From Tubiluchus corallicola (Eukaryota; Priapulida; Priapulimorpha; Priapulimorphida; Tubiluchidae), in NCBI GenBank assembly GCA_030141605.1, contig JAQGDQ010000886.1, forward strand, positions 30,001 through 83,830: a DNA stretch of 53,830 nt, in the 5' to 3' direction. The position numbers were made by a program, and so were the translations under genes. Positions 10,076 through 53,829 of this stretch are shown here, piece by piece; within the stretch, counting starts at the first letter, position 1, and the number at the start of each line of letters is the position of its first letter. The notes under the pieces are model-generated. The model worked only from the letters and a program-made list of their open reading frames with translations. It searched no databases and had not been told where the DNA came from.

Positions 10076-36408
<26,333 letters not shown>

Positions 36409-37873: not shown

Positions 37874-38010
37874 AACTGCGGAAAGGTATCATTGTCTGTC
37901 CTAGTGTCAGCTTTATTAATGACAGAATTATTGGGGAACTGCGGAAAGGTATCATTGTCTGTCCTAGTGTCAGCTTTATTAGTGACAGAAATATTGGGGA
38001 ACTCGGGAAA
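37874..38010. repeat. 63-bp tandem duplication
   Basis: The unit starting AACTGCGGAAAGGTATC at 37874 repeats at 37937 with few changes, and a third copy starts at 38000 but stops after about 11 bases. Because 63 is a multiple of 3, an open frame spans it, but nothing suggests it is coding. Confidence 0.9.
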
Positions 38011-39856: not shown

Positions 39857-39898
39857 ATGGATCACAAAATAATGTTTCTTCTGCTGCTCTTACAGCTC
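39857..39898 (+). CDS. Small peptide gene exon 1: signal peptide
   Basis: ATG through MDHKIMFLLLLLQL to the donor CTC|GTAAGT, phase 0, 14 codons. The hydrophobic core continues into exon 2 (VIV). TTTTCAG just before AATGG suggests the coding exon begins there after a 5' UTR intron. I find no second copy of this exon in the window. Confidence 0.7.
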
Positions 39899-42800
39899 GT
39901 AAGTATATCATTATATTTATGCGTGTCAGACTTCAAAAAGATCTTTGGGTAAATATCTAGCATCCTCTTAGCCTAATAGGTGAGCCTAAAAGATACATAA
40001 GATTTGCATTAAGATTTAACGCAAACAATTTATTGTTTTAATAAAGCAAAAAATAACTATTTTGTGCTATATGTTATCTCTGTACCAATGATACCTAATG
40101 ATTCTGCAATTCAACTTGAACAGAATAAAAATGTCGTTATGCTGACTTATTACCTTGTAAAGTTCAGAGTTCTTGCTTTTTTAGTTCAAATTGGTGACAG
40201 TCGGGATCTGAATAAATAAACAGGCTTGTAAAATAAAAAGCCTGCGAGTCGAGACAGCAAGGTCATATATAGACAAACTTTCATAGACCATTTGAAAATT
40301 TAAAAACGTTACAGTACGAAACTAAAATATGAATTCTTATAACATTAGCAAACAAATTTTACACTGAATTAATTTCTGTACGTAGAATATTTTATTACGA
40401 ATTTTCGCTCCCTAAACACAGTAATCCCTCTTTCAGGTTATCGTTAAAGCCCAAGAATTACCTGGTTCTCCGTGGGTAGTTTACTTTCCTATTTTTTATC
40501 CAGAAATTTATAATGGTCTGCTATATGAAGAATACTTTTTGGAATGAGACTGCGACGACAATTCTAAGCCTGTTTATTGTTGATGGTTGATATGGTGCAT
40601 TATGAACATCTAAATTTTATAAATATGATTCATTTTTGGAGTTTTTTTGTGTCGTAAATAAATATTTTACTGCCAAATGTGTTATGTATAAATTGACTTT
40701 AAATTCTATATGTTCCTGAATCGTTATCATCGTTACCGTCATCGACGCCATCGTCATCGTGATGATTATCATTCAGACTATCATCAGCGTTAGCAGCATT
40801 GCTGACAGATTTTACCAGCGACAGCATTCTTGTTAGCGTCATAAATGTATAACACACACTGAACAGAAGTTAATGGCATTTACAACAACTGTAAACATGC
40901 TTGTTACGGATAGCAATTAACACATCAATAAATTGGATAAAAAATGATTAAGCCCGTATCTTTCGGCAATTTATATGTAATGCGCACGTAAACAATGTAT
41001 GTTATACAAGGGGAACTGGATTATATATAACATATGTAGCAAAATTGGGTCAACAATGTCCGATTCGTTGCCATTGTTTGGCTAATTATTTTTGATTATT
41101 GATTTGACTTCTATGGATCTTTTATAAAATACTTAGCCCACAGGTGACAGGTCACTCCCAAATGTCCCAGCAATTTTCACTAGAAAGCCAATTCCAAAAT
41201 CGCCCTCCAATTCTGTCTTGAAAAGTTATCTTTTGAATTGTGATCAGTCTAAATCTGAGTATTCGTCCTCACTACTTTCTGAACAATCAGATTCCAAGGA
41301 ATCCGCCCATCTTCTGCCAATCAACAAGGTGATTATAATAGGCATGAACTCTCTCCTCCTCCTTCTCCTCCTCCTCATTCTCATCTCCCCTGCTCCCTTC
41401 AACTGATTGTGGTGGAGACAGATGTGTGGCGAAGCGCACAAAAGGGACAAGACAAGAGTGACTTGGCGCTAGTTCCCACCCATGTCTGACTATGAAGAGC
41501 GGTACGCAGTAGTTAGGTAGATGTCCATGAAATGTTGAAAAATTTGTAATGCATTAGCATGCCACATACACACAAAGAGCTTACATGGCACCCAGGCACT
41601 CTTCCTCTAAGTGACTCATGTTCACATTCACGTTCATCACTGCACCACTGCAACGCCCACCAAGCCTGCCAAATCCACCCCACTGTGAAACCTATCTAAT
41701 CTGTCACCACCCAACTTCTAAATCTGCTATACCATTAAATGTTAAAAATTTTACCCCAAATCAGTATTAAACATTTGTGGATTTGCCATTTGGCTTTTTC
41801 ATATATAGACAAATTTTCATAGACCATTTAAAAATTTAAAAACGTTACAGTACGAAACTAAAATATGAATTCTTATAACATTAGCAAACAAATTTTAGAC
41901 TGAATTAATTTCTGTACGTAGAATATTTTATTGCGAATTTTCGCTCCCTAAACACAGTAATCCCTCTTTCAGGTTGTCGTTAAAGCCCAAGAATCACCTG
42001 CTTCTCCGTGGATAGTTTACTTTCCTATTTTTTATCCAGAAATTTATAATGGTCTGCTATATGAAGAATACTTTTTGGAATGAGACTGCGACGACAATTC
42101 TAAGCCTGTTTATTGTTGATGGATACTCTATAATAATATGCTATGATTGAAATCCATTACAGTACATAACTAACATGAAGTTTATAATGACCAACTACAT
42201 GAAGAATACTATTTAGATTAAGGTTGTGACGACAACTATAAGCAGCTTGTTCTAGATAGTAATCTAATAAAGAGTTAAATCTTTCCGGCAACTTTCCAAC
42301 AGCAATTTGTTGAGCTATAAGGATATCAATCAAAACATCATAAAAAGTGAACAATTATTGTTTAGTAATTATAAGAAACATATACGAAATATATTGTTCA
42401 ATAGCTGGCACTCAGTTATATGTACAGCCACAACTCTTTTAACCTGGTGGATTGATAATGTGTGGTGCATTATGAACATCTAAATTTTATAAATATGATT
42501 CATTTTTGGAATTTTTTTGTGTCATAAATAAATATTTTACTGCCAAATGTGTTATGTATAATTGACTTTAAATTCTATAAGTCCCTGAATCGTTATCATC
42601 GTTACCGTCATCGACATCATCGTCATCGTGATCATTATCATCCAGACTATCATCAACGTTAGCAGCATTGCTGACAGATTTTACCAGCAAAATCATTCTT
42701 GTTAGCGTCATAAATATATAACACAAACTGAACAGAAGTTAATGGTATTTACAGCAACTGTAAACATGCTTGTTATGGATAGCAATTAACACATTAATAA

Positions 42801-45800
42801 ATTGGATAAAAAATGATGAAGCCCGTATCCTTCGGCAATTTATAAATAACGCACACGTAAACAATGTATGTTATACAAGGGGAAGTGGATTATATATAAC
42901 ATATGTACCAAAATTGGGTCAACAATGTCAGATTCGTTGCCATTGTTTGGCTAATTATTTTTGATTATTGATTTGACTTCTATGGATCTTTTATAAAATA
43001 CTTAGCCCCCAGGTGACAGGTCACTCCCAAATGTCCCAGCAATTTTCACTAGAAAGCCAATTCCAAAATCGCCCTCCAATTCTATCTTGAAAAGTTATCT
43101 TTTGAATTGTGATCAGTTTAAATCTGAGTATTCGTCCTCACTACATTCTGAATAATCAGATTCCAAAGAATCGCCCATCTTCTGCCAATCAACAAGGTGA
43201 TTATAATAGGCATGAACTCTCTCCTCCTCCTTCTCCTCCTCATTCTCATCTCCCCTGCTCCCTTCAACTGATTGTGATGGAGACATATGTGTGGCGAAGC
43301 GCACAAAAGCAACAAGATAAGGGTGACTTGGCACTAGTTCCCACCCATGTCTGAGTATGAAGAGCGGTACGCAGTAGTTAGGTAGATGTTCATGAAATGT
43401 TGGAAAATTTGTAATGCATTAGCATGCCACATGCGCACAAAGAGCTTACATGGCACACAGGCACTCTTCCTTTAAGTGTCTCACATTCACGTTCATCACT
43501 GCACCACTGCAACGCCCACCAAGCCTGCCAAATCTATCCCACCGTGAAACCTATCAAACCTGTCACCACCCAAGTTCTAAATCTGCTATACCTTTAAATT
43601 TTGAAAATTTTACCCCAAATCAGTGTTAAACATTTGTGGATTTGCCATTTGGCTTTTTCAGATATAGACAAATTTTCATAGACCATTTAAAAATTTAAAA
43701 ACGTTACAGTACGAAACTAAAATATGAATTCTTATAACATTAGCGAACAAATTTTACACTGAATTAATTTCTGTACGTAGAATATTTAAGTTACGAATTT
43801 TCGCTGCCTAAACACAGTAATCCCTCTTTCAGGTTATCGTTAAAGCACAAGAATCACCTGCTTCTCCGTGGATATCTTACTTTCCTATTTTCTATTCAGA
43901 AATTTATAATGGTCTGCTATATGAAGAATACTTTTTGGAATGAGACTGCGACGACAATTCTAAGCCTGTTTGTTGTTGATGGGTACTCTATAATAATATG
44001 CTATGATTGAAATCCATTACAGTACATAACTAACATGAAGTTTATAATGATCAACTACATGAAGAATACTATTTAGATTAAGGTTGTGACGACAACTATA
44101 AGCAGCTTGTTCTAGATAGTAATCTAATAAAGAGTTAAATCTTTCCGGCAACTTTCCAACAGCAATTTGTTGAGCTATAAGGATATCAATCAAAACATCA
44201 TAAAAAGTGAACAATTATTGTTTAGTAATTATAAGAAACATATACGAAATATATTGTTCAATAGCTGGCACTCAGTTATATGTACAGCCACAACTCTTTT
44301 AACCTGGTGGATTGATAATGTGTGGTGCATTATGAACATCTAAATTTTATAAATATGATTCATTTTTGGAATTTTTTTGTGTCATAAATAAATATTTTAC
44401 TGCCAAATGTGTTATGTATAAATTGACTTTAAATTCTATAAGTCCCTGAATCGTTATCATCGTTACCGTCATCGTCATCGTGATCATTATCATCCAGACT
44501 ATCATCAGCGTTAGCAGCATTGCTGACAGATTTTACCAGCAACATCATTCTTGTTAGCGTCATAAATATATAACACACACTGAACAGAAGTTAATGGTAT
44601 TTACAGCAACTGTAAACATGCTTGTTACGGATAGCAATTAACACATTAATAAATTGGATAAAAAATGATGAAGCCGGTATCCTTCGGCAATTTATATGTA
44701 ATGCGCACGTAAACAATGTATGTTATATAAGGGGAACTGAATTATATATAACACATGTAGCAAAATTGGGTCAACAATGTTAGATTCGTTGCCATTGTTT
44801 GGCTAATTATTTTTGATTAATGATTTGACTTCTATGGATCTTTTATAAAATACTTAGCCCCCAGGTGACAGGTCACTCCCAAATGTCCCAGCAATTTTCA
44901 CTGGAAAGCCAATTCCAAAATCGCCCTCCAATTCTGTCTTGAAAAGTTATCTTTTGAATTGTAATCAGTTTAAATCTGAGTATCGTCCTCACTACATTCT
45001 AAATAATCAGATCCAAGGAATCGCCCATCTTCTGCCAATCAACAAGGTGATTATAATAGGCATGAACTCTCTCCTCCTCCTTCTCCTCCTCCTCATTCTC
45101 ATCTCCCCTGCTCCCTTCAACTGATTGTGATGGAGACAGATGTGTGGCGAAGCGCACAAAAGCAACAAGATAAGAGTGACTTGGCACTAGTTCCCACCCA
45201 TGTCTGAGTATGAAGAGTGGTACGCAGTAGTTAGGTAGATGTTCATGAAATGTTGGAAAATTTGTAATGCATCAGCATGCCACATGCGCACAAAGAGCTT
45301 ACATGGCACACAGGCACTCTTCCTTTAAGTGACTCACATTCACGTTCATCACTGCACCACTGCAACGCCCACCAAGCCTGCCAAATCTATCCCACTGTGA
45401 AACCTATCAAACCTGTCACCACCCAACTTCTAAATCTGCTATACCTTTAAATTTTGAAAATTTTACCCCAAATCAGTGTTAAACATTTGTGGATTTGCCA
45501 TTTGGCTTTTTCATACATAGACAAATTTTCATAGACCATTTAAAAATTTAAAAACGTTACAGTACGAAACTAAAATATGAATTCTTATAACATTAGCGAA
45601 CAAATTTTACACTGAATTAATTTCTGTACGTAGAATATTTTATTACGAATTTTCGCTCCCTAAACACAGTGATCCCTCTTTCAGGTTATCGTTAAAGCCC
45701 AAGAATCACCTGGTTCTCCGTGGGTAGTTTACTGTCCTATTTTTATACAGAAATTTATAATGGTCTGCTATATGAAGAATACTTTTTGGAATGAGACTGC

Positions 45801-45974
45801 GACGACAATTCTAAGCCTGTTTATTGTTGATAGGTACTCTATAATAATATGCTATGATTGAAATCCATTACAGTACATAACTAATATGAAGTTTATAATG
45901 ACCAACTACATGAAGAATACTATTTAGACTAAGGTTGTGAGGACAACTATAAGCAGCTTGTTCTAGATAGTAAT
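39857..45974 (+). CDS. Small secreted acidic peptide gene with tandem alternative last exons
   Basis: One signal-peptide exon (39857-39898) is followed by four copies of a 36-codon last exon at 40437, 41973, 43833 and 45685. Each has the acceptor CTCTTTCAG in phase 0. Splicing to any of the first three gives a 50-residue precursor: MDHKIMFLLLLLQL plus a piece starting V-[IV]-V-K-A-Q-E, cleaved probably after the AQ or earlier. The mature peptide is about 30 residues, Pro/Trp/Tyr/Phe-rich and acidic, ending EIYNGLLYEEYFLE. Not recognised as any known family. Function unknown; hormone-like, defensive or structural roles are all possible. Only exon 1 carries a start codon, so the copies depend on it unless unseen starts exist. 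Confidence 0.65.
40437..40547 (+). CDS. Small peptide gene last exon, copy 1
   Basis: After CTCTTTCAG, 36 codons and TGA (40545-40547). Starts VIVKAQELPGSPWVVYF and ends EIYNGLLYEEYFLE. A poly(A) signal follows at 40657-40662. Confidence 0.72.
   Translation, partial: VIVKAQELPGSPWVVYFPIFYPEIYNGLLYEEYFLE
41973..42083 (+). CDS. Small peptide gene last exon, copy 2
   Basis: Same length and frame as copy 1. Differs in the front part, reading VVVKAQESPASPWIVYF; the last 19 residues are unchanged. Poly(A) signal at 42527-42532. Confidence 0.68.
   Translation, partial: VVVKAQESPASPWIVYFPIFYPEIYNGLLYEEYFLE
42177..42221 (+). pseudogene. Decayed older copy of the last exon, unit 2
   Basis: Reads EVYNDQLHEEYYLD then TAA, aligned with EIYNGLLYEEYFLE then TGA of the main copies. 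Flanking bases after the stop also align (GTGACGACAA against GCGACGACAA). A TAA shortly upstream closes the frame, so it is not a normal last exon now. A poly(A) signal at 42266-42271 fits an ancient full terminal exon. Confidence 0.65.
43113..43334 (-). pseudogene. Antisense acidic reading frame within array unit 2
   Basis: The minus strand is open from about 43,390 down to TGA at 43113, reading LPNYCVPLFILRHGWELVPS, an acidic run (GDENEEEKEEER) and a tail ending CSEDEYSDLN. Homologous minus-strand sequence is in units 1 and 3 but frameshifted near its end. It looks like the 3' part of an unrelated gene carried in the duplicated unit. I do not recognise the family, and no start or donor is certain. 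Confidence 0.3.
43833..43943 (+). CDS. Small peptide gene last exon, copy 3
   Basis: Intact frame. Front part reads VIVKAQESPASPWISYF, and a Ser replaces the Pro just before EIYN. The last 14 residues are unchanged. Poly(A) signal at 44387-44392. Confidence 0.68.
   Translation, partial: VIVKAQESPASPWISYFPIFYSEIYNGLLYEEYFLE
44037..44081 (+). pseudogene. Decayed older copy of the last exon, unit 3
   Basis: The same remnant as in unit 2, at the same relative place, with one base changed (GATCAA for GACCAA). The reading remains E-V-Y-N-D-Q-L-H-E-E-Y-Y-L-D and stop. Confidence 0.6.
45685..45859 (+). pseudogene. Small peptide gene last exon, copy 4, frameshifted
   Basis: Acceptor and the first 20 codons are kept (VIVKAQESPGSPWVVYCPIF), but one base is lost in the T run near 45740. 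The conserved ending is then out of frame, and the homologous stop (45792-45794) is bypassed. The shifted frame stays open to a TGA at about 45857-45859, giving an unrelated longer tail. The LTR retrotransposon inserted about 115 bases further on removes the normal downstream sequence, so this copy is probably dead. Confidence 0.65.
45889..45933 (+). pseudogene. Decayed older copy of the last exon, unit 4
   Basis: A third occurrence in the interrupted unit. The retrotransposon inserted about 40 bases downstream, so its old poly(A) region is separated from it. Confidence 0.55.
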
Positions 45975-47182
45975 TGTCATGTTTCGCCCTACATTTAATA
46001 GTTCTCACATTATGCTTATGCAACATTAAGCCCTATTCATACTGTATGTTCAATTAATTGATATGTATGATATTTAGCTACTGGCAGTGATAGTTAATTG
46101 TGTTATTAATTACTGATATTTTGTTAGGATGTAGGCACCTACTAACAAACCCCCTTTTGAATTCCGTCTGACCCACTCTTGTCTGCCCTATCGCGGCTGT
46201 AATGCAGTGGCTAAGTCAAGGTTAATGATAGTGTACAGGTGAATAAAATTATAGCTGTTTTTAAGTGAGTGGCTTCTCGATGAACTTCGTTCTAACACTG
46301 TTTAGATAGAGACGGCAACTTGACACAGAACGAGACAGGTCGTTTACTCGTCTCTGTGAAGTTATGTGTTTGTTGAACAGAAATGCCGTACTAGAAAGTT
46401 TCACACAAGATATGGTGTGTAATGTACATGGTGATACTGTGAGAGCCTAGTTGTTGTAAGCTACGTGGTCGTCAACCAGAGTTGTCCCAGAGATGCTGGC
46501 TTGCAGTCTGCAATAGTGGAGTTACCCACTGACTGACAAATGGATCGACCTACTACAGAACCACATCCAGGGTGGTAACAGGTACTTTTCGCTTTTGTTA
46601 CGATCGTAACTAACGTCGCACTGATAACGTAAACATCACGTATACTAGCCTAATGTTCTTCGATGCTACTTGCTGGGTAAAGACTAATTGGTAGTTTCTC
46701 TGACGAAGTTTGGAATCGCAACTGTATTCAGACGCAGAGGTTATACGACGTATTGCTACCGTTCTACAAACTGTTCGCTTTAAAGGAAAGGTGTTTCAAA
46801 AAACCTAGGTACAAAGTGGGCAGACATGAACTTTATGCAAACGTATATACCCTACTAACCCCAAGCTTTGTCAATATTGCTATATCTTTGTTATTACTGA
46901 ACTTTTGCTTAAATCGAATCACTTTGGAATTTGTTAACGATTAAATTGTTTGATTAATTATTTTAATGTCTGCCATTTGATCTTTTTCTTTCTTCAATCC
47001 ATTAGTGTATAGAATGCAAATAGGCCATAGTCCCCCGTATTTTTAACATTAGCCTTAGGCCGATCTGCATCCATACATTTAGTGACTATCATACTAGCTC
47101 CCTTCTGTTATGAGATGTAAAACTAACGCAGCATGCCCCTCTTTGATTCCCCTAGAGGAAATACAGGATCAGGGTCATCACA
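45975..47182 (+). repeat. 5' LTR
   Basis: 1208 bp, starts TGTCATGTTTCGCCC and ends GGTCATCACA. By eye, roughly 25-30 differences from the 3' LTR, mostly in the first half. An AATAAA lies at 46242-46247. Confidence 0.93.
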
Positions 47183-47874
47183 ATGGTGGCAGCGGTTTTA
47201 AAGTAATTGCCACAGTATAACAGTTGTAGCAATGGTTTGTCATAATTAATTTGACATCAGTTTACAGCAGTAGTAGTTATTGTTTTTCTTCATTCTAGTA
47301 CATGTGAACAGTGTAATTGTTGTGAGTTTCAACTTTTAACGAAAGTAGTTTAGCAACAAATTTTTAGGGAAGAGCTGTCTATGATTGCAGGAAATTTAAT
47401 AATTATGTTGGTAATACTAATCAGTTTATACTGTGTTGTACCGTAAATCATAAATGCCTAATATCTGCAATTTTTACTAGACTGATAAAACCCTATGCTT
47501 GTTTATGCTAAAATACCTGTTTGGTGTGTCACCACATGATTTTCTATTTACGGTTAAGTTTTGTGTTTTCAAGGTAATAAGTTGTTATTGCGTGAATGCC
47601 CGTACATAGGTGTATTTAGCATAGTAACTGGCTTCATAGTATTTGCGTGGAAATTTTTCTCTGGCTATAGATCCCTTAAATACACAGTGCAAACAGACTT
47701 TCCTATAAAGCACTGTCTGAACTTAGCGCATAAATTACCATAGCATTACTTGTGGGTATTCTGACTTAGTTTACTTTAAGCGTTTTTTTTCTGCTTACCT
47801 ATACAGTTACTACAGTATAACTCTTGTGAATTAGCAACCTTAGTTCATACATTCACTGAAACAATTAATACATA
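47183..47874 (+). other. Retrotransposon leader
   Basis: About 690 bases of AT-rich untranslated sequence between the LTR and gag, starting with the PBS. No coding segment is apparent. Confidence 0.7.
47184..47195 (+). other. Primer-binding site
   Basis: TGGTGGCAGCGG starts one base after the LTR. TGG complements the tRNA CCA end, and the rest would pair with a tRNA 3' end reading CCGCTGCCACCA. I cannot name the tRNA without a search. Confidence 0.75.
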
Positions 47875-49311
47875 ATGGAATCCAAAGTTATTTTGACGAA
47901 AGAAGCTTTAGATTCCATGAGAAAAGCTGAACTTTTGGAAACAGCAAAAGCATTTGGTTTACCAACCTCAGGTAGCAAGCAAGAATTAATAACTCGCATA
48001 TTAGCGTTCCAGAATTTTGTTGAATCTGACATAGTTAATCCTGATGAAGGCACAGTTCAGGAAGAAAATGTTAGTCTCCCTGATACGCAGCTGACACAGC
48101 AGAATGCACGTGATGACGAGGGTGCAACGGCCGAGCTCCCCCTCACTACGTCCACTCCCAGTGTCCAACATGCTATACAAAATTTTGGTGGAGTCGTGAA
48201 ATCTAAACCTTACACAACGCCGCCACCAAACATTCCTAATATGTTTCAGGATGCGTTACCTGTGCAACAAATGCAAGCACCTGATAATTATTTCCAAATA
48301 ACACAAACTAAGCAGATAGAATTGCAATTGCAAGAAAAAATTTTACAAACAGAGCAAATAAAATTAGAACAAATGCGCTTACAAAGTCAAATGGGGATGA
48401 ACAGTTATATGAATCAAAGTACACCAGATTACAATCAGTCACCACTGAAAATTAAGCTACCAGTTTGGGATGACTCTAAAATGGATATCTTGGAATTGTT
48501 TTCCAATTTTGAACGCTGCATGAGCGTTAATAAAGTCCCTAAGCGAGACTACGTAGCAAATTTAAGCAGGGTAGTAACACCTCGTGCGAATAGAGCACTA
48601 GATGAACTTTCAGAAGATGAGATAGCTGATTATGATACGGTAAAACAACGAATACTTGACGCATATAAACTTTCCAAAGAGGCCTATCGTGTAGCATTTC
48701 GCGATACGCACAAATATAAATCTGAAACCTTCAGAAATTATTTCAGCCGTGTACGCAAAGCTGGCAATGCATGGTTAAATGCTGTTGACGCAAAAACAAA
48801 AGAGGCCGTCTGTGATCATTTCTTTCTAGAGCAAGCATATACTAGTTTGCCTGACGATTTAGTTGCCTATCTGAAAAGGCAAAAATTCACTTCCTACTTA
48901 GAAATGGCAGATTGTGCTGATATTTATTGGACTTCTACAACAGAAGTGGCACCAATTAAACCATTTAAGGGGAAGGGCACAAGAAACTTTAAAAAGGTTT
49001 CCTCTATTGCCAATGGAAAAATTGATCATGATATCGCTGATCAAATAAGTGGTCGCAAAGACACAAATTATCAACAGTCTAAAAAAGCTTATTGTTTTTC
49101 ATGTGGGCAAAAAGGACATTCCAAGTATGAATGTAGGAATAAGTCCATTCAGAAATCAACCCCGTCTGAGAAAAAGACATACTCAATTCTGCATTCAAGA
49201 AGCAGTTGTCTGGAGTTGTTCAGAGAAGAACAAGGTCTTACTCCGATTCTTCAAATCAGAATAATGTCAGTTATCTCAGAGACGGTAATCACTATATATG
49301 GATTACAATGA
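47875..49311 (+). CDS. gag: Retrotransposon Gag with SAP domain and CCHC knuckle
   Basis: 478 residues, intact from ATG to TGA. Residues about 12-45 fit a SAP DNA-binding motif (LDSMRKAELLETAKAFGL, then SGSKQELITRIL). Residues about 145-175 are Gln/Glu/Leu-rich and likely coiled coil. The middle (about 195-370) fits a retrotransposon Gag core. A CX2CX4HX4C zinc knuckle uses C407, C410, H415 and C420. The following pol frame overlaps and is in the -1 frame, suggesting programmed -1 frameshifting. A SAP domain suggests chromatin or nucleic-acid tethering; that role is inferred. Confidence 0.85.
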   Translation: MESKVILTKEALDSMRKAELLETAKAFGLPTSGSKQELITRILAFQNFVESDIVNPDEGTVQEENVSLPDTQLTQQNARDDEGATAELPLTTSTPSVQHAIQNFGGVVKSKPYTTPPPNIPNMFQDALPVQQMQAPDNYFQITQTKQIELQLQEKILQTEQIKLEQMRLQSQMGMNSYMNQSTPDYNQSPLKIKLPVWDDSKMDILELFSNFERCMSVNKVPKRDYVANLSRVVTPRANRALDELSEDEIADYDTVKQRILDAYKLSKEAYRVAFRDTHKYKSETFRNYFSRVRKAGNAWLNAVDAKTKEAVCDHFFLEQAYTSLPDDLVAYLKRQKFTSYLEMADCADIYWTSTTEVAPIKPFKGKGTRNFKKVSSIANGKIDHDIADQISGRKDTNYQQSKKAYCFSCGQKGHSKYECRNKSIQKSTPSEKKTYSILHSRSSCLELFREEQGLTPILQIRIMSVISETVITIYGLQ

Positions 49312-50768
49312 ATGGCATTGGATGTTATGCACTTAGGGATACTGGAGCTGATTCATCCATGGTTCGCTCTACTCTTTTACCCAAAGACCAATACACTGAA
49401 GACACTGTTGTTCTCATATGCTGTTGGGGTGAAACGAAAAAATTTTCGTTGGCTAAAATACCAATTTTCTCACCATTAGGAAATGGATGGCTTACTGTTA
49501 TAGTAATTCCTAATTTGCCTAAGAATATAGTCATTGGAAATGACTTTAAAGAGGCATTGGAACCATTCTCCAAAGCAGAGGAAATCCAATTTGCAATGGG
49601 TAACTCTAAGGTGAGTCTTGGTCGTGCCTTATCTTTGGAACAGTTGAATGACATCCCTCTTGATAACACATATGAGCTCGCTCATAAAGTGAACAAACAT
49701 TCCAAGACGCAGTTTCCTGATGTAAATGCTGATCATGCTTGTCAATCATTGGTTGTCACAAGAGCTCAAGCAGCAAAGCGTGATTCTCAACGAGAGTTTT
49801 CTGCTACGAGTGGGGATGATGGAATTAAGGCAGATCTGAATCAGCATAATGACAAGTTGTTTCACTTGTCTAGAGCTCAGCTAATTCATGAACAGGAGGA
49901 TGATGTAACCCTAAGGAATCTTCAAGACAATGCTGTTAGCAAACAAACAGCACTGAAAAAGGGTGATGCATACTACCTGGAAGCTGGTGTTCTTCACAGA
50001 GCTCTAAGAGACAAGAAAGGCAAGACAAAGACATTGTTGGTAGTTCCGAAGTCTCGAAGACTTGAGGTGTTGCAGCTAGCACATGATACAGAGATGGCAA
50101 GTCACTTGGGTATTAAAAAGACTCGACAACGAATCTTATCTGATTATACCTGGCCTGGAATTCATAATTCGATAAAGCGATATGTACAATCCTGTCCAGT
50201 TTGTCAGAAAACATCTCGAAATATGACAAGAGACAGGATGAAACTCAAACCTTTACCTGTCATAGAGAAAGCTTTTGAGAGTATTCAAATTGATATTTGT
50301 GGCCCATTTAATAGGACCAAAAGGAATAATCGCTACGTGTTAGTTATAATCGACCAAGCAACACGCTATCCAGATGCGTATGCTATGCCAAATGCAGAAG
50401 CTTCCACTGTAGCAAGATGTCTGCTACAATTTATGTGTAGATATGGAATCCCTTCGATTATCCAATCTGATCAAGGCACTCAGTTCAAATCGTCACTGAT
50501 TCGCGACCTGGAAACAGCACTGCACATTCAAGGAGTTTTTTCTACCCCATATAGACCCCAAAGTCAAGGTCTTTGTGAACGTTTTAATGGCAGCCTAAAA
50601 GCTTCTATTAAAAAGCTTTGCTTAGCCAAGAAAACATCTCAATGGGATGACCTTCTGTGCTTTGTTCTTTTTGCATACCGTGAGGTACCGCAAGAGTCAC
50701 TCAAATACAGTCCATATGAACTGGTGCATGCATGGCCATCAAATAAATGGACCAATGGCAGTCCTTAG
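49206..50768 (+). CDS. pol: Retrotransposon Pol part 1: protease and integrase
   Basis: An open frame of 520 codons in the -1 frame relative to gag, with no need for its own ATG. Aspartic protease motif DTGAD at residues 45-49. Integrase zinc-binding H293, H300, C330, C333 (HX6HX29CX2C). Catalytic triad D363, D422, E458 in IQIDICGPF, QSDQGTQF and LCERFNGS, spacing DX58DX35E. The integrase frame breaks near 50720-50740 beside a short CATG direct repeat and runs into a stop at 50766-50768; coding similarity continues in another frame. Confidence 0.88.
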   Translation: MSGVVQRRTRSYSDSSNQNNVSYLRDGNHYIWITMNGIGCYALRDTGADSSMVRSTLLPKDQYTEDTVVLICCWGETKKFSLAKIPIFSPLGNGWLTVIVIPNLPKNIVIGNDFKEALEPFSKAEEIQFAMGNSKVSLGRALSLEQLNDIPLDNTYELAHKVNKHSKTQFPDVNADHACQSLVVTRAQAAKRDSQREFSATSGDDGIKADLNQHNDKLFHLSRAQLIHEQEDDVTLRNLQDNAVSKQTALKKGDAYYLEAGVLHRALRDKKGKTKTLLVVPKSRRLEVLQLAHDTEMASHLGIKKTRQRILSDYTWPGIHNSIKRYVQSCPVCQKTSRNMTRDRMKLKPLPVIEKAFESIQIDICGPFNRTKRNNRYVLVIIDQATRYPDAYAMPNAEASTVARCLLQFMCRYGIPSIIQSDQGTQFKSSLIRDLETALHIQGVFSTPYRPQSQGLCERFNGSLKASIKKLCLAKKTSQWDDLLCFVLFAYREVPQESLKYSPYELVHAWPSNKWTNGSP

Positions 50769-52287
50769 AAAACGCTGGGGTTCAGAAAAGTCTACAAACC
50801 CAGTTGAACTCGATGATTATGTTGCCGAAATGATTGATCACCTCGAAGACATAACTGAAGAAGCTCATGACCAGTTGTTACAGGCTAAAGTTGCACAAAA
50901 AGACTGGTATGACCAAAAGAGTCGTCATAGGTCTTTAGAACCAGGCATGCAAGTTCTAGTTCTGCTTCCCTCTTCTCAGAAGAAGTTGGCCAAAATATGG
51001 CAAGGTCCATACGAGGTGTTGAGCAAAATATCTGAATATGTATATGAGATAGCTATTCAGAAAAAAGGAAAGAAATCCCAATGCTTCCACATCAATCATC
51101 TAAAGGAATATATTTCCCGTGATGCAAAGACAATTCTCTATGCACAAAGTATCCTGCCAAGAGAAGAACAGTTTAAAAACTTTTCTGATAAGCAGCCTGA
51201 ACTAGGTGAGGACAATAATGCAGATATTTGGTTGTCTTTGAAACAAGAAACTGATATGCCTGATCATTGTTTTCCTCCATCATTAGTTACACCGACACAA
51301 AGTGTCAAAGATGTGGTAATACCCACTCACCTGTCTAAACAACAACAACAGGAATTAACTGAGCTTTTAGATAAATTCTCCATTGTATTCTCCGACATAC
51401 CTGGGAAAACTAATCTAATTGAGCACAAAATCAATCTTACTTCTGACAAACCAATTTCTCAAAAGCCTTACCGCATTCCACAAGCGCAAAGAGAAGCAGT
51501 GCGTTTGGAAGTGCAAAATATGAAAGACCTTGGAGTGATTGAGGAGTCAGATAGTCTATATTCCAGTCCGGCAGTCCTGGAACCAGTAATCACTTGTGCA
51601 TCTGGTTATATTGATGATGTAGCTATTAGAAGTCAGACATGGAAAGACCATCTTTACCACATTGAACTTGTATTAACATGCATCATGCATGCAGGCCTAA
51701 CTATAAAGCCACTTAAATGTGCTTTTGCACAACGAGAAATCGAATTTCTTGGCTACATTGTGGGCTGTAATGTTCTCAGACCACAACCTGCAAAAATACA
51801 AGCACTCAAAGACATGGCAAGACCACAAACTAAAAAACAAGTTCGCAGTTTTTTAGGCTTCGTAGGATTTTATCGCAGATTCATTAAAAACTTTTCAAAC
51901 ATTGCTATTCCACTTATTGCACTTACTGAAAAGTGTAAACCAAATGCTATTGTCTGGAACGACGACTGTGAGCAGTCATTTGTTACTCTTTGCCATGCCA
52001 TTAATACGGAATCGATACTTCATTCTCCTGATTTTGAGAAAACTTTCTATGTAACTACAGATGCAAGTGATACAGGCATCGGTGCTACTCTCTCACAATT
52101 TGACACACAAGGTAATGAGCTACCAATAACTTACATTAGTAGGAAGCTCTCTGGAGCTGAAAAGAATTATTCAACAATTGAACAAGCGCTGTTGGCAATT
52201 GTCTATTCAGTTGAAAAACTTTCTTTTTACCTAGTTGGTCGAAGATCATGTTGGATGCAAAATCACTTGTCCCCTTACAAAACATGA
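50735..52287 (+). pseudogene. pol: Retrotransposon Pol part 2: integrase C-terminus, truncated RT, RNase H
   Basis: Continues the integrase with PGMQVLVLLPSSQKKLAKIW and FHINHLKEYI. The RT follows: KPYRIPQAQREAVRLEVQ, LGVIEESDSLYSSPAV, then directly GYIDDVAIRS near 51607. The segment that normally lies between, with the fingers and first catalytic Asp, is missing by an in-frame deletion around 51575-51600. Then LGYIVG, the SFLGFVGFYRRFI connection, and RNase H with TTDASDTGIGATLSQ and NYSTIEQALLAIV. It ends at a premature stop after a frameshift near 52240. This copy cannot make a working RT. Confidence 0.85.
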
Positions 52288-52409
52288 AAGTTAAAAACAA
52301 GAGAATTGCTAGATGGATTTTGCTCCTTCAGGAGTACACTTTCACACTTGAGCACATTCCTGGAGTAAAAAAATGAATGTGCTGATGCTCTTAGTAGGAT
52401 GTGAATAAT
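52240..52409 (+). pseudogene. pol: Retrotransposon Pol tail in shifted frames
   Basis: After the frameshift near 52240, the end of the RNase H region remains readable in other frames, with RWILLLQEYTFTLEHIPGV and later ADALSRM. A further frame change lies at the A run near 52368-52374. Confidence 0.7.
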
Positions 52410-52613
52410 TTTATCACTTTTTTAGATAGAATAGCATATGTTTCTTTTGAGAACCTTGGAAACTTTTAAGCAAAGTGATCTGTAATATGGACCGAACTTT
52501 TTTTTGATATATTTTTTTTGCCAGAGAAAGGTTATCACAATTTCTTTTTCACTTCAATGTTGCATATAGATTTAAAGTGGTGACGTCCTTTTTTAGTCCA
52601 TCACACACTTTTT
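52410..52613 (+). other. Retrotransposon 3' untranslated region
   Basis: AT-rich sequence between the end of pol and the polypurine tract. No envelope-like or extra reading frame was seen, so the element lacks env. Confidence 0.7.
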
Positions 52614-52625
52614 GGAGAGGGGGAC
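52614..52625 (+). other. Polypurine tract
   Basis: GGAGAGGGGGAC directly before CT and the 3' LTR start; the expected plus-strand primer. Confidence 0.8.
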
Positions 52626-52627
52626 TC

Positions 52628-53829
52628 TGTCATGTTTCGCCCTACATTTAATAGTTCTCACATTATGCTTATGCAACATTAAGCCCTATTCATACCGTAT
52701 ATTTAATTAGTTGATATGTATGATATCTAGCTACTGGCAGTGATAGTTAATTGTATTATTAATTATTGATATTTTGTTAGGATGTAGGCACCTACTAACA
52801 AACCCCCTTTTGAATTCCGTCTGACCCACTCTTGTCTGCCCTATCGCGGCTGTAATGCAGTGGCTAAGTCAAGGTTAACGATAGTGTACAGGTGAATAAA
52901 ATTATAGCTGTTTAAGCGAGTGGCTTCTCGACGAACTTCGTTTAACACTGTTTAGATATAGACGGCAACTTGACACAGAACGAGACAGGTCGTTTACTCG
53001 TCTCTGTGAAGTTATATTTTGTTGAAGAGAAATGCCGTACTAGAACGTTTCACACAAGATATGGTGTGTAATGTACATGGTGATACTGTGAGAGCCTAGT
53101 TGGTGTAACACGTGTTCGTCAACCAGAGTTGTCCCAGAGATGCTGGCCTGCAGTCTGCAGTAGTGGAGTTAACCACTGACTGACAAATGGATCGACCTAC
53201 TACAGAACCACATCCAGGGTGGTAACAGGTACTTTTCGCTTTTGTTACGATCGTAACTAACGTCGCACTGATAACGTAAACATCACGTATACTAGCCTAA
53301 TGTTCTTCGATGCTACTTGCTGGGTAAAGACTAATTGGTAGTTTCTCTGACGAAGTTTGGAATCGCAACTGTATTCAGACGCAGAGGTTATACGACGTAT
53401 TGCTACCGTTCTACAAACTGTTCGCTTTAAAGGAAAGGTGTTTCAAAAAACCTAGGTACAAAGTGGGCAGACATGAACTTTATGCAAACGTATATACCCT
53501 ACTAACCCCAAGCTTTGTCAATATTGCTATATCTTTGTTATTACTGAACTTTTGCTTAAATCGAATCACTTTGGAATTTGTTAATGATTAAATTGTTTGA
53601 TTAATTATTTTAATGTCTGCCATTTGATCTTTTTCTTTCTTCAATCCATTAGTGTATAGAATGCAAATAGGCCATAGTCCCCCGTATTTTTAACATTAGC
53701 CTTAGGCCGATCTGCATCCATACATTTAGTGACTATCATACTAGCTCCCTTCTGTTATGAGATGTAAAACTAACGCAGCATGCCCCTCTTTGATTCCCCT
53801 AGAGGAAATACAGGATCAGGGTCATCACA
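52628..53829 (+). repeat. 3' LTR
   Basis: 1202 bp, starts TGTCATGTTTCGCCC and ends GGTCATCACA. The last half is nearly identical to the 5' LTR. A 63-codon frame inside both LTRs is part of the repeat and not a separate gene. Confidence 0.93.

Follow-up and report, generated by a model that had tools for sequence, protein, structure and literature searches.

The window analysed here, 53,830 nucleotides of the priapulid Tubiluchus corallicola (contig JAQGDQ010000886.1, positions 30001-83830, ending at the contig end), contains a 1.5-1.9-kb segment whose tandem copying is beyond doubt and which comprises part of an intron (intron 1 of the candidate gene described below), exon 2, the 3′ end and downstream DNA. 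We think it somewhat probable that the locus is an unproven orphan peptide gene that probably ends in the first copy of the segment and has had its 3′ end multiplied by a recent tandem segmental duplication. An earlier, sequence-only reading had gone further and proposed that one promoter makes several precursors by choice of last exon. This is partly supported: the layout would permit it for copies 1-3, but the changes among these copies look neutral and copy 4 is broken, so that the proposal goes further than the evidence.

The anatomy of the array is as follows (Table 1). Four acceptors ending CTCTTTCAG each open a copy of the exon, and copies 1-3 hold 36 codons in phase with exon 1 and then a stop. 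A stop and a poly(A) signal of its own are found in three of the four copies; copy 4 lacks this arrangement, given that a one-base deletion in its coding part makes the frame run on beyond the stop position of the other copies, and the AATAAA listing has no entry between copy 4 and the retroelement that follows. Each of units 1-3 also carries one additional AATAAA (at 40927, 42796 and 44648). What would be expected of alternative last exons is found in part, namely one upstream (predicted) exon followed by four homologous last exons, with the frame to the stop kept in 3/4. The exon coordinates of the sequence-only reading proved exact, as did its claim of a stop and AATAAA for each of copies 1-3, whereas its fourth in-phase copy is the frameshifted one. 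Exon 1 is indeed single: blastn with exon 1 and its flanks reveals no further copy in the window (the next-best match has E 0.06), and a query spanning 39857-40600 finds four matches in the assembly (343.5 Mb, 2344 contigs; repeat counts are lower bounds), all of them in the window and only one including exon 1. What had been taken for a tandem array of last exons as such is, however, a duplication of the whole unit, which starts inside intron 1; the aligned blocks of the unit copies are 95-97.5% identical (for example a 3536-base block at 95.8%). The array had been described as ending at 45974, which is explained by the LTR element starting at the next base.

Table 1. Features of the candidate gene, the duplicated units and the inserted element, in window coordinates. 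Unit starts are approximate and lie inside intron 1; the lengths of units 1-3 are also the spacings between units.
Feature	Position	Strand	Remarks
Candidate exon 1	39857..39898	+	Start codon and first 14 predicted signal-peptide codons (MDHKIMFLLLLLQL); donor GTAAGT at 39899
Candidate intron 1 to copy 1	39899..40436	+	538 nt; duplication breakpoint inside, ~40263
Last exon copy 1	40437..40544	+	36 codons, stop; AATAAA 40657
Last exon copy 2	41973..42080	+	36 codons open, stop; AATAAA 42266, 42527
Last exon copy 3	43833..43940	+	36 codons open, stop; AATAAA 44126, 44387
Last exon copy 4	45685..45791	+	Frameshifted, one-base deletion; no AATAAA before the retroelement
Duplicated unit copy 1	40263..41798	+	1536 nt; without the ~340-nt stretch of copies 2 and 3
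Duplicated unit copy 2	41799..43657	+	1859 nt
Duplicated unit copy 3	43658..45510	+	1853 nt
Duplicated unit copy 4	45511..45974	+	Cut by the LTR element
Relic of exon 3′ half	42177..42257 (copy 2), 44037-44117 (copy 3), 45888-45968 (copy 4)	+	nhmmer E 5.5e-9, 2.3e-9 and 4.4e-8, respectively
LTR retrotransposon	45975..53829	+	LTRs 45975-47182 and 52628-53829; interrupts copy 4

The units differ by a stretch of about 340 bases that is present in copies 2 and 3, missing from copy 1 and kept for its first 143 bases in copy 4. This stretch contains a diverged fragment of the 3′ half of the exon with its stop at the same place, a relic that is absent from copy 1 and identical to the exon at 61/82 positions. 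Upstream of it lies an intron-like piece (34/45 positions alike), and we read the two together as the probable remains of an older duplicate. The relic was considered as an outgroup that could reveal constraint and was set aside, with no clear excess of conservation in its coding part (35/45 identical positions at the coding end against 26/37 beyond it, by hand count). An acidic antisense frame of 101 aa (43116-43418, minus strand) is open in copy 2, its frame being shifted in copies 1 and 3; its copy-2 reading has no Pfam match at E <= 10 and no homologue was found for it, while its copy-1 reading gives a sub-threshold match to DUF5825 (E 0.062, 13.5 bits against a cut-off of 25).

The candidate gene would consist of two exons. 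When exon 1, which translates as MDHKIMFLLLLLQL up to its GTAAGT donor, is spliced in phase to the 36 codons that begin at 40437, the product reads MDHKIMFLLLLLQLVIVKAQELPGSPWVVYFPIFYPEIYNGLLYEEYFLE, a precursor of 50 residues in which the predicted signal peptide is completed across the exon 1/exon 2 junction. A scan by rule finds the expected features, an N-terminal basic residue, a hydrophobic core and small residues before the cleavage site, and the predicted signal peptide is likely cut after VKA, leaving a peptide of 31 residues. This predicted mature part is acidic (calculated pI 4.05, charge -5.2 at pH 7), contains 29% aromatic residues and is devoid of cysteine, lysine and arginine. 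Unmodified, the 31-residue peptide would weigh about 3.8 kDa, and its N-terminus may carry pyroglutamate. The ATG at 39857 has A at -3 and G at +4, an in-frame stop lies upstream of exon 1 just before 39812, CTAAAC and a pyrimidine tract precede the copy-1 acceptor, and the AATAAA at 40657 is followed by a TG-rich stretch (TGTGTTATGT). The AATAAA alone is not telling because four others lie within intron 1 and the DNA is A+T-rich (window GC, 35.5%).

How often such a model arises by chance was estimated on both strands of positions 1-40600 of the window, against 300 shuffles of the plus strand. Under strict rules (donor GTAAGT, purine at -3, at least 9/12 pyrimidines before the acceptor, strong hydrophobic core) one first exon is found on the plus strand and none on the minus strand, with 3.3% of the shuffles holding one; under medium rules the counts are the same and 14% of the shuffles hold one. 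The sole first exon that passes both sets of rules on either strand is 39857..39898. An earlier scan with somewhat different rules also gave one on the plus strand and none on the minus strand, and none in 30 shuffles. When weak donors and any start context are allowed, five first exons pass on each strand and 92% of the plus-strand shuffles hold at least one (mean 2.7), so that the gene model is not proven. The strict and medium figures suggest a two-exon model that moderately beats chance, bearing in mind that they flatter the model because the rules were written after it was known. We therefore regard the peptide gene as a plausible but unproven orphan prediction.

Do the copies evolve as if their peptides mattered? 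Pairwise divergence is 2.8-7.5% between the exons, 2.3-3.5% in the adjoining intron part and, for copies 1-3, 2.4-4.9% in the downstream part of the unit; the noncoding parts are at least as similar as the exons. Copies 1-3 differ by nine exon changes, seven nonsynonymous (two of them in one codon) and two synonymous, against a neutral expectation of 6.3 : 2.7 that uses the transition bias of the noncoding unit parts (P(<=7) = 0.80; low power, with nine substitutions). All nine lie within the first 66 nt of the exon, leaving its last 42 nt unchanged. On this account positive selection on the N-terminal half of the mature part was considered and set aside: the pointwise P of the cluster is 0.017, yet over all 66-nt windows 81% of permutations reach the same count (max-window P 0.81). 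Because N:S is neutral, the cluster is unremarkable over all windows and copy 4 is frameshifted, we see nothing to indicate codon constraint, and nothing solid to indicate selected divergence, among copies 1-3, within the low power of nine substitutions (7N:2S). Copies 1-3 appear to change as neutral DNA would, the copies being young and the test weak. The sequence-only reading had named, among the signs that would speak against it, evolution of copies 2-4 free of codon constraint along with exclusive use of copy 1, and this is found in part: copies 1-3 fit neutrality at low power, and copy 4 has lost its frame.

The reading that we favour would run as follows. Tandem segmental duplication has multiplied the 3′ end of what would be a two-exon gene for a small secreted peptide; its breakpoints lie inside intron 1 and 1.3-1.6 kb beyond the stop codon. 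Polymerases starting at a promoter before exon 1 would meet copy 1 first, and exon 1 would most likely be spliced to this nearest acceptor, the transcript ending at the copy-1 poly(A) site. The copy-1 acceptor should win mostly, given that the four acceptors are near-identical and that copy 1 is the nearest, with a stop and a poly(A) signal directly behind it. The anatomy, the duplication, the frameshift, the insertion and the neutral-looking changes are observed in the sequence; we infer that the gene is expressed, that it uses copy 1 and that its product is secreted. Read-through past 40657 could permit the use of copies 2 and 3, which are structurally usable but drift with no detectable codon constraint; copy 4 is frameshifted and was later cut by the LTR retrotransposon.

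If copies 2 and 3 are more than bystanders, the signal exon transcribed from one promoter could be joined to any of copies 1-3, each of which has a poly(A) site of its own, yielding peptides that differ in the mature N-terminal half. That copies 1-3 keep phase, acceptor, stop and AATAAA speaks for such functional alternative last exons, as does the distribution of the substitutions, seven of the nine changing residues and all of them lying in the first 66 nt. We nevertheless hold this to be improbable: the N:S ratio is neutral and the cluster not significant over all windows, the flanks are conserved at least as well as the exon, copy 4 is broken, and among near-identical acceptors the one that is nearest has its own poly(A) signal. 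Recent duplication is likelier than a working splice switch because the changes among the copies look like drift. A bolder version, in which a miniature secreted-peptide gene was recently made into a switch with one signal exon and three last exons by a breakpoint in its first intron, the mature N-terminal half now diversifying, would make the locus a splice cassette seen very early in its life, before it is either fixed or decays; we rate it as more doubtful still. A further idea, that each unit is a complete gene with a first exon of its own, was rejected: the leucine-rich ATG frame at 41344 reaches a stop before any GT (as read in copy 1), and this frame and its equivalents arise from a CTC repeat (tblastn pieces at 41347, 41356, 43221, 45065 and 45074).

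Alternatively, there may be no gene, exon 1 and the acceptor-exon being a chance match and the segment plain duplicated noncoding DNA. Neutral-looking change in all copies is also expected in that case, and the lack of codon constraint among the copies, the about equal divergence of the relic in its coding and 3′ parts and the ease with which such models arise under loose rules all point the same way. So does the failure to find homologues of the precursor in about 5.8 billion proteins, in Pfam (no match at E <= 10) or among PDB sequences (no match at E <= 1), but the missing matches mean little because the protein collection seems poor in animal proteins; in fact, the Gag protein of the retroelement finds only one weak match there (24% identity). 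A literature search with three peptide strings likewise returned no paper among open-licence papers. What speaks against the absence of a gene is that 39857..39898 is the only first exon in a 40.6-kb stretch, on either strand, to pass the strict and medium rules, and that start context, donor, acceptor, stop and poly(A) signal form a coherent whole. On balance we consider it unlikely that no gene exists, although the idea has to be reckoned with.

The array ends in an LTR retrotransposon, which cuts copy 4 at the junction 45974/45975 and thereby parts the copy-4 exon from any poly(A) region belonging to it. Up to this junction copy 4 keeps register with the other copies, and the element therefore most likely landed after the duplications. 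Its LTRs are 97.8% identical over 1208 aligned positions and begin with TG and end with CA; judged by its sequence, the element is young. The contig ends one base past the 3′ LTR, so the element terminates the visible array. GTAAT precedes the 5′ LTR and may be the target-site duplication; the one base that follows the 3′ LTR is G. Its coding part comprises three long overlapping open frames: (i) SAP, a SCAN-like capsid (PF02023, E 4.9e-8) and a sub-threshold zinc knuckle; (ii) protease (RVP), H2C2 and integrase core (rve); (iii) the integrase C-terminal domain, RVT_1 reverse transcriptase and RNase H. In this Ty3/gypsy-type element the integrase precedes the reverse transcriptase, the order RVP, H2C2, rve / integrase C-terminal, RVT_1, RNase H extending over two overlapping frames. 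Integrase upstream of reverse transcriptase is described as the peculiarity of Gmr1 elements among gypsy-type elements (PMC8220671), and the SCAN domain is reported to derive from a Gmr1-like Gag (PMC3424704). By domain order and content, the inserted element resembles the Gmr1-like Ty3/gypsy retrotransposons of these accounts in both respects (PMC8220671, PMC3424704).

On the same strand, 3.4 kb before candidate exon 1, lies the stop of a gene whose exons (12444-36408) encode an extracellular protein with Sushi, EGF_CA, HYR and two Ephrin_rec_like domains, which we take to be SVEP1-like. Exon 2 was considered as its last exon and this was ruled out because the upstream gene has its own stop (36406-36408, at the end of its Ephrin_rec_like exon) and AATAAA (36541). 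The Pfam scan of the neighbourhood covered 118 of the 322 ORFs that reach 45 aa on either strand up to 45974, plus sets of 10, 10 and 3 proteins; on the minus strand outside the array it included two ORFs. Elsewhere in the window there are a long trinucleotide-type repeat array (24807-25213), an inverted repeat whose arms of about 180 bases are 81% identical (25661-25840 / 26439-26618; perhaps DNA transposon ends) and a 63-base tandem repeat in two and a bit copies that are 94% alike (37874-38010). A tRNA-like match at 27845-27917 (30.4 bits against a gathering score of 29) is perhaps a tRNA-derived repeat; ARAGORN finds no tRNA there.

Duplicated C-terminal exons have precedents, so this kind of layout is already known. 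Insect serpin genes are reported to undergo C-terminal alternative splicing in which a constant 5′ part, with a signal peptide in extracellular forms, is joined to one of many alternative C-terminal exons, exon duplication being among their origins (PpSerpin-1, PMC10513286). There, the exons are part of a large known protein, orthologues in another genus (Nasonia) exist for 16 of the 21 alternative exons, and roles in immunity and venom are reported for several isoforms (PMC10513286). Unlike these, the exon copies of Tubiluchus are young, nearly identical including their flanks, and known from sequence alone. Drosophila mod(mdg4) also combines common 5′ exons with alternative 3′ exons; there, independent promoters supply the 3′ exons, and trans-splicing attaches them (PMC12692577). 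In a study of green-lacewing venom genes, alternative last exons are among the event types scored (PMC12758981). The present data agree with an ordinary, recent tandem duplication affecting the 3′ end of a gene. Should copies 2 and 3 be in use, the locus would illustrate the birth of an alternative-last-exon gene, in that a single breakpoint within the first intron would have turned a plain gene into a cassette.
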